Positions 16,147-43,188 of a stretch of DNA of 64,000 nt are shown in pieces. The stretch lies in the NCBI RefSeq assembly GCF_025264685.1, contig NZ_CP073721.1, positions 7,581,501 to 7,645,500 on the forward strand. The letters are read 5' to 3'. A model generated the notes under the pieces. That model worked only from the letters and a program-made list of their open reading frames with translations, was not told where the DNA came from and did not search any database. The position numbers were made by a program, and so were the translations under genes. Every line of letters begins with the position of its first letter. Position 1 is the first letter of the stretch. The stretch is from Dactylosporangium roseum (GTDB taxonomy: Bacteria > Actinomycetota > Actinomycetes > Mycobacteriales > Micromonosporaceae).

Positions 16147-16264
16147 TCAGCGCCGTTTCCCGTTTCTCTCGGCGCGGCGCGCTTTCTTCCAGCTAGGGTT
16201 GCCGTACTGTGGCCGATAGGCGCTGAGTGAAGGCGCCTGCTAGCGGGTGGGACGGAGGCACGCT

Positions 16265-17350
16265 ATGCGGCCTGTGCGATTCGTCGCCCTCTCGGAGGAC
16301 GGTCAGGCGTTCGTCCTGGCCGACGAGGTGGGGCGGCTGCTCGCCCTGCCCATCGACGAGCGCGTCCAGAGCGCGCTCCGCCCCGATCACAGCCACCCGG
16401 CGAGCCCGATCGAGACCGGCGCGTCCCAGCTCGCCCCGCGTGACATCCAAGCCCGCATCCGCTCCGGCGAGTCGGCCGAGGAGGTCGCGCGGGTCGCCGG
16501 CGTGCCGGTCGACCGTGTCCTGCGGTATGCCGGGCCGGTCCTCCAGGAGCGCGCGATGCTCGCCCAGCATGCACGGCGCACCCGGCTGAAGACGTCCGAG
16601 AAGGGCGCGTCGCTCGCCGAGGTCGTCGACACGCGGCTGGGCCAGCACGGCATCGACACCGAGAAGATCTCCTGGGATGCGTACCGGCGCGAGGACGGCA
16701 CCTGGCGGATCACCGCGACGTGGCCGAGCGGCAAGGCGACCGCGCAGGCGGTGTGGGAGCTCGACAAGGCCCGCCAGCTCGTCGCGCCGCACGACGACAT
16801 GGCGCAGTATCTTTGCACCGAGCGGGCGCCGCACATCCTCGGCCAGGAGCCGCCCGCGCCGGAGCGCACCTTGCCGGCCCGCGGCGAGAGCAGCCGCGGC
16901 GACCTGGGCCTGCGCCCCGACGCCGTCCGCACCGGCGGTCACGAGCCGATGCGCCCGGCCGCGCCGGAGCGCCGCCCCGGCGGTCGCGCGCTGGGCAACG
17001 ACCCGATCCGGGCCGGCCGTGACGCGCTGCTGGCGTCGCTCGACCGCCCGTTGGGCCGCAACGCGTCCGACGAGCCGCCCGCGGTGACGCCGCCACCGGT
17101 CCAGGGTGAGAACCGGGCCCGAGGCGCCGCCGCGCTGATCGGCCGCTCGCCGTTCGACGACGACAGCGACCAGAGCAAGGAGATCCCGGCGGTGCCGTCG
17201 CTGGCCGTCCTGCGCCCGCGCCGCAACACGACCTCGGCCGCCGCCGCGGTGGATCAGCCGTCGGCCGCGTCGGAGAAGCCCCGCAAGCGCCTGCCGAGCT
17301 GGGACGATGTCCTGTTCGGCGGCGCACCGGCCGCGCGCGAGACGAGCTGA
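16265..17350 (+). CDS. sepH: Septation protein SepH (DUF3071)
   Basis: A 361-residue cell-division protein. The N-terminal DUF3071 domain (MRPVRFVALSEDGQAFVLAD through about residue 170) holds a helix-turn-helix-like segment (ESAEEVARVAGVPVDRVLRY) and the conserved GTWRITATWPSG strand. A long disordered middle follows, and then the conserved C-terminal peptide LPSWDDVLFGG. SepH binds and stimulates FtsZ assembly in Streptomyces and mycobacteria. ATG 16265 is preceded by GGGACGGAGG. It is a strong marker for an actinobacterial host. Confidence 0.95.
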   Translation: MRPVRFVALSEDGQAFVLADEVGRLLALPIDERVQSALRPDHSHPASPIETGASQLAPRDIQARIRSGESAEEVARVAGVPVDRVLRYAGPVLQERAMLAQHARRTRLKTSEKGASLAEVVDTRLGQHGIDTEKISWDAYRREDGTWRITATWPSGKATAQAVWELDKARQLVAPHDDMAQYLCTERAPHILGQEPPAPERTLPARGESSRGDLGLRPDAVRTGGHEPMRPAAPERRPGGRALGNDPIRAGRDALLASLDRPLGRNASDEPPAVTPPPVQGENRARGAAALIGRSPFDDDSDQSKEIPAVPSLAVLRPRRNTTSAAAAVDQPSAASEKPRKRLPSWDDVLFGGAPAARETS

Positions 17351-17397
17351 CGTTCGCCGCCCCGTGCGGTTCAAGATCGCGCGATAGGTTGGCAGTC

Positions 17398-18384
17398 ATG
17401 GAGTACACGAACCTCGGGCGGACCGGCCTGACGGTCAGCCGACTGTGTCTCGGGACGATGAACTTCGGGCCGAAAACGGCCGAGCCGGACAGCTTCGCGA
17501 TCATGGACCGCGCGCTGGAGCACGGCATCAACTTCCTCGACACCGCGAATGTGTACGGCTGGAAGCTCGGCGAAGGCGTCACCGAGCAGATCATCGGCCG
17601 CTGGCTCGCCCAGGGCGGCGGCCGCCGCGAGAAGGTCGTCCTCGCGACCAAGGTCTACGGCAAGATGCAGGAGTGGCCGAACGGTCAGGGCCTCTCCGCG
17701 CGCCACATCATCGCCGAGGCCAACGCCTCCCTCAAGCGACTACAGACCGACTACATCGACCTCTACCAGATGCACCACATCTCCCGGGCCACGCCCTGGG
17801 AGGAGATCTGGCAGGCGATGGAGGTCCTCGTCATGCAGGGCAAGGTGTTGTACGTCGGGAGTTCCAACTTCGCCGGATGGCACATCGCCGCCGCCCAGGA
17901 GTCGGCGAACCGGCGCGACTTCCTCGGCCTGGTCGCCGAGCAGTGCCTCTACAACCTCATGGCCCGCACGGTCGAGCTGGAGGTCCTGCCGGCGGCCCGC
18001 CGGTACGGCATCGGGATCATCCCCTGGTCACCGCTGCACGGCGGCCTGCTCAGCGGGGCTCTCGCCAAGCTGGCGTCGGGCGCCGCGGGACGCACCGCCG
18101 AAGGGCGTGCGGCCGAGCACCTGGAGAAGCACCGGTCGTCGGTCGAGGCGTTCGAGAAGCTCGCCGCCGAGCTGGGCACCGACCCGGCGAACCTCGCGCT
18201 GGCCTGGCTGCTCGCGCAGGACGGCGTGACGGCGCCGATCATCGGTCCCCGAACGATCGAGCAGCTCGACAACACGCTCGGCGCGCTCGGGCTGCGGCTC
18301 GACGAGGCGACCCTGCAGCGGCTCGACGAGCTGTTCCCGCCCGTCGGCAAGGGCGGCCCGGGGCCTGAGGCCTGGGCCTGGTAG
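17398..18384 (+). CDS. Aldo/keto reductase
   Basis: A 328-residue NADP(H)-dependent reductase with the (beta/alpha)8 fold. Tetrad positions are visible: Asp and Tyr in FLDTANVYGW, Lys in VLATKVYGKM, His in LYQMHH. NADP contacts appear in the C-terminal APIIGPRTIEQLDN. ATG 17398 is preferred; an in-frame TTG at 17389 is an alternative. The substrate is unknown; the sequence belongs with the YhdN/Tas-like broad-specificity group. Convergent with the RNA phosphodiesterase gene, 27 bp apart. Confidence 0.9.
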   Translation: MEYTNLGRTGLTVSRLCLGTMNFGPKTAEPDSFAIMDRALEHGINFLDTANVYGWKLGEGVTEQIIGRWLAQGGGRREKVVLATKVYGKMQEWPNGQGLSARHIIAEANASLKRLQTDYIDLYQMHHISRATPWEEIWQAMEVLVMQGKVLYVGSSNFAGWHIAAAQESANRRDFLGLVAEQCLYNLMARTVELEVLPAARRYGIGIIPWSPLHGGLLSGALAKLASGAAGRTAEGRAAEHLEKHRSSVEAFEKLAAELGTDPANLALAWLLAQDGVTAPIIGPRTIEQLDNTLGALGLRLDEATLQRLDELFPPVGKGGPGPEAWAW

Positions 18385-18411: not shown

Positions 18412-19146
18412 TCACGGGGTCAGTGCCACCGTCGTGATCGACTCGTACTCGGGTCTCGGCCCCATGAAACTGCGCACCAGTCGCACCTCGTCGACGGTCC
18501 ACGACGGTCCTTCGTACGCGTCCAGGGCCGCCAGGTCGGCGGCGAGCTCGGCGGCGGGCAGCCGGTCCCCGGGCCGGGCGATCGTGATGTGCGGCCGGAA
18601 GGGTTTGTGATCGAACGGCACCCGTCGCCGCCGCAGGGCCTTGCGGACGGCGTCCGCGAGACCGGCCAACGCCTTGCGCTCCGCGACCGCGTCCTCTCCC
18701 CCGCGCTCCGCGACCCGGTCCTCTCCCCCGCGCTCCGCGACCCGGTCCACTCCACTGCGCTCCGCGACCGCATCCTCTTCCCCGCGCTCCGCGGCCGCGT
18801 CCACTCCTCCGCGTTCCGCGACCGCATCCTTTCCCCTGGGCTCCGCGGCCACGTCTCTGAGGTCGGCGACCATGATCGTGAATCGGCCCCGGCCGAAGCG
18901 GCTCCCGCCGGTGATCCGCACCGTGGGCGGGCCCACCCGCAGGTCGCGCAGCGCGTCGGCGGCGTCGTCCGCCTGCCCCTCCGTCAGGTCGCCGAGAAAC
19001 GCGAGCGTCAGGTGCCAGCGGTCCGGGGTGGCCAGCCTGGTGGAGCACCCCGGCGGCATGGGGCGCGCGACCGCGAGCCGGGCAACCAGGTCCCCGAAGT
19101 GCTCACGGACATCGGCCGGCGGGTACGCCGCGATGAACAACCTCAA
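18412..19146 (-). CDS. thpR: RNA 2',3'-cyclic phosphodiesterase (2H superfamily) with nonapeptide-repeat insertion
   Basis: A 244-residue 2H phosphoesterase, formerly called 2'-5' RNA ligase. Both catalytic HxTx motifs are present: HLTL (residues 45-48) and HITI (186-189). Members open 2',3'-cyclic phosphate ends of RNA. Usual length is about 180-190; the excess is an insert at residues 106-159 made of six nonapeptides of the form (E/V)D(A/R)VAERGG, encoded by six in-frame 27-bp units. The insert falls between the two lobes, so activity could survive. Start is TTG 19146, overlapping the upstream gene's TGA as TTGA. Confidence 0.88.
   Translation of the reverse strand: MRLFIAAYPPADVREHFGDLVARLAVARPMPPGCSTRLATPDRWHLTLAFLGDLTEGQADDAADALRDLRVGPPTVRITGGSRFGRGRFTIMVADLRDVAAEPRGKDAVAERGGVDAAAERGEEDAVAERSGVDRVAERGGEDRVAERGGEDAVAERKALAGLADAVRKALRRRRVPFDHKPFRPHITIARPGDRLPAAELAADLAALDAYEGPSWTVDEVRLVRSFMGPRPEYESITTVALTP
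18670..18831. repeat. 27-bp minisatellite, six in-frame units inside thpR
   Basis: Six adjacent 27-bp units (162 bp) coding for variants of the nonapeptide EDAVAERGG. Units differ by a few substitutions but never in length, so the thpR frame is kept. The core of each unit on the plus strand is CCGCGCTCCGCGACC. Confidence 0.9.
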
Positions 19147-19673
19147 CGCTGCTGCGCCCCCGCGTCCCGCAGCACCAGCCCGGCGCGCTCCAACTCGCCC
19201 TCCAGCCGCATCCGCTCGAGCTCGAGGTCGGCCCCGGCCAGGTCGTCGAGGAACTCATCGACGCCGAGCTGGCGGCAGGCGACCCGCAGCCCTTCGTCAT
19301 ATGCCCGCTGGACAGCGTTGAACCATACCGGCGACCGCAGGGCGATCCCGCCCCGGAGCCGGTTGAGCCGCCGAAGGTCTCCCGCCACCTGCTCGATCGG
19401 CGGGCAGGCGGGAGCGTGCCGCTCACCGGCGGTGGCTTCGTGGATGCCGCGTCCGAGGCGGCTGAGCTGCCAGCGGCGCCCGAGGCGGGTCTCGGTCCAC
19501 CGCCCGCCGCGCGCAGGCTGATCACGCCGACGCCGCCGGACGATCCGCCGAACGGCACGCCCGACTCGTTCAAGAATTTCGTCGGCGGAGATCAGCAACA
19601 GGCAGACCAGGCACGGCGCCACGGCGATGAGCCCTATGGCGCCGGCGACCAGCAGGCCGTGCGGCACGCCCAC
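19143..19673 (-). CDS. Hypothetical membrane-anchored protein
   Basis: A 176-residue protein not recognised. It has one N-terminal membrane segment (VAGAIGLIAVAPCLVCLLLI, about residues 9-28) followed by an amphipathic, very basic stretch (GRAVRRIVRRRRR), then a soluble helical C-terminal half (QVAGDLRRLNRLR, AVQRAYDEGLRVACRQLG, a long Leu/Glu helix). It overlaps the start of thpR by 4 bp (TTGA), so the two are co-translated. This suggests, without proving, a link to RNA end metabolism. Confidence 0.7.
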   Translation of the reverse strand: MGVPHGLLVAGAIGLIAVAPCLVCLLLISADEILERVGRAVRRIVRRRRRDQPARGGRWTETRLGRRWQLSRLGRGIHEATAGERHAPACPPIEQVAGDLRRLNRLRGGIALRSPVWFNAVQRAYDEGLRVACRQLGVDEFLDDLAGADLELERMRLEGELERAGLVLRDAGAQQR

Positions 19674-23668: not shown

Positions 23669-24451
23669 TCAACCCGGCGAAACCGCGAGGCCCGGCGAAA
23701 CCGCGAGGCCCGGCGAAACCGCGAGGCCGGACGAAGCTGTGACACCGGGTGAGGCCACAAGGCCCAGCACAGCCGTGAGCGGCGCGCCGGCCAGCGCCTT
23801 CACCTCACGCGAGAGGTGGGCCTGGTCGGCATAGCCGGCGACGGCCGCGACCTCGCCGAACGCCATCCCGCCGCGGGCCAGGTCGAGCGCGTCGTTGACG
23901 CGGAGGATGCGGGAGAGCGTCTTCAGCCCGTACCCGAAATGGAACAGACAGCGCCGGTGTAGCTGCCGTTCGCTGAGGCCGACCTCGGTGGCGACCGCGC
24001 CCACCGAGGCACCGGTCCGCAGCCGGGCGACGGCGGCGCCCACCCACGGCTCCGGCGGCCGGACCTCGCCGATCAGCGCCGCCTCGAGGACGGCCGCCCG
24101 GTCGGACGCCTCGTCGAGCATCCCGGCGAGCCGACGGACCCGTCGCAAAGGCCAAAACGCCTCGAGTGGTACGCGCTGATCGCGCAACGCTTCGGCCGGG
24201 ACGCCGAGGATCCCCGGCGCGGTGCCGGGCGCGAACCGGACCGCCGTGAAGCGCCGCCCGGCGGGGCTCCAGGAGAGATGGGCGGTCGTGTCCGGACCCG
24301 CGACGAACAGCTCACCGGTGCAATGGATGACGTCCATGCAGCCGTCGGGCAGGATGCGGCCGGCGCCGTCCTCGCGGACGTGACGCGACCAGACGACGGC
24401 GCCCGGGATGCGCGAGCGCCGCTCGGTGTAGTCGGACTCAGCCGTGACCAT
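23669..24451 (-). CDS. AraC-family transcriptional regulator
   Basis: A 260-residue regulator. The N-terminal sensing half (GRILPDGCMDVIHC, FVAGPDTTAHLSW, RFAPGTAPGILGVPAEAL) matches the DUF6597-type domain found with AraC regulators. The DNA-binding half has GAVATEVGLSERQLHRRC and a second helix-turn-helix, FGEVAAVAGYADQAHLSRE. The C-terminus is odd: it ends in tandem LAVSPG units produced by an 18-bp repeat, so the last 20 residues are probably not structured. Overlaps the end of the DUF3027 gene by 14 bp. Confidence 0.85.
   Translation of the reverse strand: MVTAESDYTERRSRIPGAVVWSRHVREDGAGRILPDGCMDVIHCTGELFVAGPDTTAHLSWSPAGRRFTAVRFAPGTAPGILGVPAEALRDQRVPLEAFWPLRRVRRLAGMLDEASDRAAVLEAALIGEVRPPEPWVGAAVARLRTGASVGAVATEVGLSERQLHRRCLFHFGYGLKTLSRILRVNDALDLARGGMAFGEVAAVAGYADQAHLSREVKALAGAPLTAVLGLVASPGVTASSGLAVSPGLAVSPGLAVSPG
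23673..23726. repeat. 18-bp tandem repeat, three exact units
   Basis: Three exact copies of CCCGGCGAAACCGCGAGG overlap the 3' end of the AraC gene and code, on the minus strand, for LAVSPG repeats just before its stop codon. Confidence 0.9.
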
Positions 24452-42555: not shown

Positions 42556-43188
42556 ATGGCAGAACCAGGGCTCGGACAGGCATCCGCCGGCTCGCCGCCG
42601 TCGGCCTCGGCCGCCCCGGCCGGGGCAGGCTCTCCGGCCGGGGCCGCAGCCGGCTCCCCGGCTACGGCTGCGGCTGCGGCTGCGGCAGGCTCCCCGGCTA
42701 CGGCTACGGCTACGGCTACGGCTGCGGCAGGCTCCCCGGCTGCGGTGACCACGGCGCAGGCCGACTCCGCTGGCGCGGCGGGCGCGCGCGGTGCCGGCAC
42801 CGCGCGGGGTGTGGCCTCGGACGCCACGGCCGACCGCCAGGCCTCCGGCCCAGCGGACCCGGCCGCCGCCGCACCCGCCGGGTCACCCCCGGCCTCGGCG
42901 GATGCCGGCGCCGCGACCCCACCCCCGGGAGCCGCGCCGAACTTCCTCCAGTCCGACGTCATGGCCGGCCCGGGCGGCGTGATGACCGACGAGGTCGGTG
43001 TCATCACCGGCGAGTTGACCCTGCGCACGGAGGTCGACGCCGACGGCGCCGTCGTCGTGCGGGTCCAGTACAAGGACGCCGAGGAGTGGTACGTGGTGAC
43101 GGGCGCCCGCGCCCACCTCAACGACCCGGCGGACCTCTCGGCCGTGCACACCGTAGTCACCGGCATCCTGGACCGCCCCAACGGCTAA
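42556..43188 (+). CDS. Low-complexity protein with conserved C-terminal domain
   Basis: A 210-residue protein. Residues 1-125 are almost only Ala, Gly, Ser, Pro and Thr, created by short GGCTNC-type repeats. The last 75 residues are ordered: GVMTDEVGVITGELTLRTEV, VVVRVQYKDAEEWYVVTGA, LSAVHTVVTGILDR. That domain resembles small conserved actinobacterial proteins near recR; no function known. ATG 42556 lies after GGAAGGGACGG. The gene ends just before a family-1 hairpin. Confidence 0.75.
   Translation: MAEPGLGQASAGSPPSASAAPAGAGSPAGAAAGSPATAAAAAAAGSPATATATATAAAGSPAAVTTAQADSAGAAGARGAGTARGVASDATADRQASGPADPAAAAPAGSPPASADAGAATPPPGAAPNFLQSDVMAGPGGVMTDEVGVITGELTLRTEVDADGAVVVRVQYKDAEEWYVVTGARAHLNDPADLSAVHTVVTGILDRPNG
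42655..42745. repeat. GGCTNC hexamer-type microsatellite in the low-complexity gene
   Basis: Runs of GGCTAC and GGCTGC with the longer phrase GGCAGGCTCCCCGGCT repeating three times. It codes for Ala/Thr runs separated by GSPA. Slippage-prone; length likely varies among strains. Confidence 0.85.

Follow-up and report, generated by a model that had tools for sequence, protein, structure and literature searches.

Our results point to a functional RNA 2',3'-cyclic phosphodiesterase, ThpR, that carries a coding minisatellite of variable copy number in the surface loop that joins strand 5 to helix 5, and we consider it likely that this minisatellite is simply tolerated, with no need to invoke a separate function. 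The gene lies in a 64-kb stretch of the Dactylosporangium roseum chromosome, hereafter the window, and the features discussed below are collected in Table 1.

Identity and conservation of the enzyme

In a profile search the thpR product passes the curated cut-off of TIGR02258 (88.1 bits against 65.7), and the Pfam family LigT_PEase (PF02834) matches it at 73.8 bits. It belongs by its model to the 2H phosphoesterase fold, since the first Foldseek matches are Escherichia coli LigT entries, with a TM score of 0.78 over the target. The histidine and threonine columns of HxTx are invariant in ThpR alignments and both motifs are kept here, as are 24 of the 25 columns that do not vary among 16 relatives; the sole departure, a glycine replaced by serine in a GGG stretch, is common to D. 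fulvum. The reading frame is unbroken. This degree of conservation suggests that the product is a functional ThpR, and the assignment made in the original prediction stands, with the TIGR02258 cut-off exceeded and both motifs present. Of 354 family genomes, 347 match TIGR02258 with an E value of at most 0.001, 306 of them above the cut-off, and all seven genomes of the genus have a ThpR match. To our knowledge, the cellular role of ThpR is poorly understood.

The stop codon of an upstream gene on the same strand overlaps the TTG start of thpR. Its 176-residue product has no match in Pfam or NCBIfam, and its N-terminus looks membrane-like by eye. Relatives of this protein turned up in 55 of 68 loci scanned; both genes could be located in 46 loci, and in 45 of these the relative lies within 400 bases upstream of ThpR on the same strand. 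The protein is a conserved neighbour of ThpR.

Table 1. Coordinates of the thpR gene, its repeat units and its upstream neighbour within the window
Feature	Position	Strand	Basis or remark
thpR, RNA 2',3'-cyclic phosphodiesterase (2H phosphoesterase)	18412..19146	-	244 aa, TTG start
Second HxTx motif, HITI, residues 186-189	18580..18591	-	Sequence
Six in-frame 27-bp units	18664..18825	-	Tandem Repeats Finder and reading in the thpR frame; score far above codon shuffles
Two identical neighbouring units (27/27)	18691..18744	-	Unit comparison
Degenerate seventh unit, VAAEPRGKD	18826..18852	-	Unit comparison
First HxTx motif, HLTL, residues 45-48	19003..19014	-	Sequence
Uncharacterised 176-aa protein	19143..19673	-	Stop overlaps thpR TTG start

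Structure of the repeat array

Tandem Repeats Finder (TRF) places the strongest tandem array of the window at 18676-18855, with a period of 27, 6.7 copies, 81% matches, no indels and a score of 227. The six complete units encode, by rising coordinate, the peptides AVAERKALA, RVAERGGED (twice), AVAERSGVD, AAAERGEED and AVAERGGVD, and the degenerate seventh matches the last unit at 17 of 27 bases and the five others at 18-22 of 27. Apart from the identical pair, which appears from its sequence to be the most recent duplication or conversion, units 1 to 6 agree pairwise at 18-24 of 27 bases, that is, with 3-9 differences. The array qualifies as a coding minisatellite, its head-to-tail units being of constant length, divisible by three and in frame, and the real gene scores 234 against a best score of 96 across 2000 codon shuffles. 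The residue composition (A, E, R, G, V and D) is preserved across units, and the insert has a net charge of -6 over 60 residues. Two further arrays occur in the window, at 23673-23728 (18 bp x 3.1, 100% matches) and at 42652-42745 (42 bp x 2.1).

Part of what the original prediction had proposed for this repeat is borne out. The 27-bp units are indeed read in the thpR frame and the insert is charged; an extension of 54 residues had been estimated, and the measured excess is close to that figure, at about 57 residues (72 between fixed anchors, against 15 in ordinary relatives). The count of six units also agrees, but the range given for them, 18670-18831, is shifted by 6 bp relative to the frame.

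Loop length among relatives

Between fixed anchors, this loop spans 12-19 residues in 44 of 47 ThpR rows, and the three outliers all belong to Dactylosporangium: 36 residues in a third species of the genus (G003), 36 in D. fulvum and 72 in the present genome. The count leaves out 15 loci missed by the motif search and six duplicates from the genus (L002, L068-L072); it includes one genome twice (L018 and L089) and one locus from outside the family (L030). A search of viral contigs gave two loci, one of which was used.

Of the named relatives, D. fulvum NRRL B-16292 (L066) is nearest, with about 95% DNA identity and the same gene order; three pieces of the locus align, of 3737 bases at 95.9%, 2723 at 95.0% and 960 at 91.8%, and the genes on either side are the same. 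Its loop contains about two related nine-residue units, RDEDTAAER RDEGVAAES, of which the middle one is closest to the unit at 18772-18798 (21/27) and the last one to the last unit here (19/27). Copy number hence differs between close relatives, with about two units in D. fulvum against six to seven here, a difference between species that amounts to 36 residues, or four units in frame. Since the loop is 36 residues longer despite flanks that are 95-96% identical in the two longest pieces, loop length changes fast. The array probably began as some two units before this species split from D. fulvum and then grew here, although shrinkage in D. fulvum may be the alternative.

Elsewhere in the genus, G003 has a 21-bp duplication of unrelated sequence in the same loop, G005 and G006 have no insert and the loop of G002 is slightly long; G001 has no insert either, as judged solely from two match coordinates that leave no room for one. 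All length differences observed in the genus are of whole codons. Taken alone, the repeats of D. fulvum and G003 are weak, with TRF scores of 84 and 82 that codon shuffles can reach (up to 96), and their common loop position is the main argument for them.

Position of the insert in the fold

Alignments place the insert directly after strand FTIMVAD and before helix LAGLADAVRKAL, beyond which comes the second HxTx strand. In the numbering of E. coli LigT this is the segment between strand 5 and helix 5, because helix 5 is followed there by strand 6, which bears the second motif. The AlphaFold2 model of the thpR product, built on a shallow alignment of four sequences, has a mean pLDDT of 62.9. 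Among ten-residue blocks outside 101-150, 13 of 20 score 71-89, the low-confidence stretches of the core (pLDDT below 50) being 26-36, 87-93 and 191-193. Over insert residues 97-149 pLDDT falls to about 30-40, and no confident repeat fold was found in the insert in this four-sequence model. A predicted helix (145-173) starts in the last repeats and continues into helix 5, so that the helical character attributed earlier to the insert holds for this prolongation of helix 5 but not for the low-confidence remainder. The D. fulvum enzyme is modelled alike, with a strand at 89-96, low confidence over 98-120 and a helix at 112-137.

According to work on LigT (PMC5283653), the catalytic residues lie where strands 2 and 6 begin; the loops between helix 5 and strand 6, strand 8 and strand 9, and strand 4 and strand 5 are flexible and near the active site. 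The strand 5-helix 5 loop sits at the opposite end of both elements from this catalytic and flexible end and hence probably faces away from the active site. The insert had been described as lying between the two lobes, which is correct along the chain, where it falls between the HxTx motifs, but in the fold it occupies the strand 5-helix 5 loop; for that reason the suggested role as a spacer holding the lobes apart seems unlikely. Better suited to it would be the loop that follows helix 2, which varies in other genera.

Selection on lobes and repeat units

Compared with D. fulvum, the lobes differ at 7 of 179 residues, with a dN of 0.020, a dS of 0.150 and hence a dN/dS of about 0.13; the values for the neighbouring aldo-keto reductase are similar (dN 0.020, dS 0.131). 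The lobes are under purifying selection. For the six units, the pooled estimates are dN 0.258 and dS 0.226, figures that are imprecise and of low power, since they come from 15 pairs of 27-base units that are not independent of one another. When the other five frames are read, dN/dS between units ranges from about 0.5 to 1.7, and the true frame is not distinguished from them. With this low power, purifying selection on the unit sequence was not detected by dN/dS between the six units. Differences at codon positions 1, 2 and 3 number 21, 41 and 24 in the pairwise comparison of units 1 to 6, and 8, 3 and 17 in the lobes against D. fulvum. These sequence comparisons show that the enzyme is kept and that the repeat peptide shows no visible conservation.

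The original prediction had taken the equal length of the units as a sign of selection on frame, an argument that finds no support, because head-to-tail duplication of 27 bp yields equal lengths by itself, and the substitution figures give the true frame no advantage over the other five. The only frame selection required is that total length stays a multiple of three.

The process that best accounts for these observations would begin with a G+C-rich 27-bp unit that gains and loses copies through slippage or unequal recombination. Changes in copy number that keep the frame would survive as the loop is exposed, probably facing away from the active site, and the two catalytic lobes would still fold despite its growth. 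The selection measured on the lobes would thereby extend to the total frame, with the downstream second motif, which the enzyme needs, presumably acting as the filter. The repeat peptide itself would drift as an acidic and mostly unstructured loop, with its last units predicted to prolong helix 5. Against such a neutral reading, the opening of a near-fixed loop in three species of one genus could reflect a lineage-specific use, and the whole-codon length differences and the preserved composition of the units also weigh against it.

Alternative explanations

The main competing possibility is that the repeat forms a selected acidic spacer or partner-binding arm, which through its length or charge would regulate the access of RNA or bind another protein, and we regard it as improbable, though less so than the other alternatives. 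It draws on the net charge of -6, on the lengthening of the loop in three species of the genus by way of two different repeat units, and on the long in-frame repeat linkers found at another loop of ThpR in other genera. In those genera the loop after helix 2 spans 17 to 234 residues between anchors, and several such loops carry in-frame tandem repeats with unrelated units of 15-144 bp; the long linkers are those of L080, L077, L081, L075, L076 and L091. The loci concerned were chosen for a weak or split match to the family model, so their frequency is biased.

On the other hand, the unit sequences of the present array show no sign of purifying selection, 36 residues of length have changed at about 5% DNA divergence, and the repeats of different lineages look unrelated. 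A nine-residue unit would, by geometry, turn some 180 degrees per repeat on a helix and would leave no continuous face or coiled-coil stripe, and most of the insert is predicted to be unstructured. The partner-binding role that had been proposed is hence possible but unsupported. As regards ThpR at large, arrays scoring at least 50 were no denser in the gene than in its flanks (5 in 16.5 kb of ThpR, 30 in 73.5 kb of flanks), a count made on 28 of the 30 loci that matched best in the search for relatives. Arrays scoring at least 75 are somewhat denser in ThpR in those 28 loci (4, against 10 in the flanks), and three of these four are the Dactylosporangium loops of the present analysis. The 19 loci with weak or split matches show 16 arrays in 13.9 kb of ThpR against 18 in 49.3 kb of flanks; this excess comes from a sample biased towards inserts, and therefore no overall repeat enrichment in ThpR is claimed. 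An extended version of the selected arm can be entertained as speculation, and we give it slightly less credence still: one Dactylosporangium lineage would have opened a near-fixed ThpR loop and would use the repeat number for quick adjustment of an acidic and disordered arm by helix 5, tuning contact with RNA or a partner, while other genera would do likewise through the helix-2 loop, making ThpR a recurrent host of tunable linkers.

An error of assembly or sequencing, with a wrong unit count, is very unlikely. Two units are identical over 27 bases, and the contamination of the assembly is estimated at 5.5% (4-12% in six other members of the genus), but all remaining pairs of units 1 to 6 differ by 3-9 bases and could thus be placed by reads, the chromosome carrying thpR is a single contig of 8.22 Mb, and related units occupy this loop in D. 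fulvum, whose genome was assembled separately.

Little can be said for a decaying thpR in which the repeat marks lost constraint, to which we assign marginally less weight again. The gene can evidently be lost: seven of the 354 family genomes lack a TIGR02258 match, two of them less than 80% complete, and ThpR is split over two frames in L096 (G324) and L094 (G253), through either pseudogene formation or sequencing error. In L096 the frame change falls within the same strand 5-helix 5 loop. The thpR gene studied here, however, does not have the appearance of a decaying gene, as had already been anticipated, for its frame is whole, lobe dN/dS stays near 0.13, and both HxTx motifs and all but one of the invariant columns are kept; unless decay set in very recently, the state of the lobes argues against it.

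That the DNA itself matters, either as a minisatellite that is mobile or dispersed or as a regulatory element, the peptide being incidental, is extremely improbable: the unit is G+C rich, the other frames are equally open and similarly variable, and an 18-base pattern of the unit core has 269 genomic matches with up to two mismatches against 142 for a reversed control, an excess that may reflect codon usage, but all three exact matches fall within the array and the genome has no second one (next-best match 39 bits, against 381 for the array).

Searches of the genome with the array and with the 18-base unit pattern led us to reject a dispersed repeat family, and plasmid carriage was rejected after a plasmid search without a match. 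In a sample of this genome totalling 800 kb (40 stretches of 20 kb, all outside the window), TRF reports seven arrays scoring at least 200, all with periods divisible by three, and 184 scoring at least 50, of which 145 have such periods, both being counts at the DNA level irrespective of genes. Strong arrays are therefore common in this genome and the thpR array is of an ordinary type there. Locus L143 (G000) contains, at 16230-18158, a 276-bp tandem array of seven copies with a score of 2469, whose unit appears, by eye, to resemble a repeated signalling domain.

Comparison with known systems

The reading we prefer, a tolerated coding minisatellite in a functional ThpR, makes this array a known sort of feature and a modest curiosity. 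Its interest lies in the natural series that it completes within one genus and one enzyme, from no insert through a short insert and about two units to six or seven, which could serve to gauge how much loop growth a small catalytic fold tolerates. Should the arm do something, a handle on ThpR would be gained; otherwise, the case shows once more that units of equal length in a coding array do not amount to evidence of selection on the repeat. A literature search, covering mostly material short of full texts and part of PMC6821194, brought up no account of repeats in ThpR.

With E. coli LigT (PDB 5LDM) the Dactylosporangium enzyme shares TIGR02258, both HxTx motifs and, according to Foldseek on the predicted model, the fold; it differs in the roughly 57 extra residues encoded by 27-bp tandem units in the strand 5-helix 5 loop. 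The repeat-bearing ThpR proteins of other genera (the six long linkers named above and L086) are alike in having a loop lengthened by in-frame tandem repeats, but theirs lie after helix 2 and their units look unrelated. More generally, prokaryotic tandem repeats with units divisible by three that encode amino-acid repeats have been described for repeats of more than 30 nt (PMC6749651), and coding tandem repeats with units divisible by three have been described in Bacillus (PMC8161180). The thpR array resembles such repeats in being a short intragenic array with a unit that is a multiple of 3 nt, encoding a peptide repeat seen in one or two species, and differs from them in its 27-nt unit, in its small RNA enzyme host and in occupying a loop whose length otherwise hardly varies.
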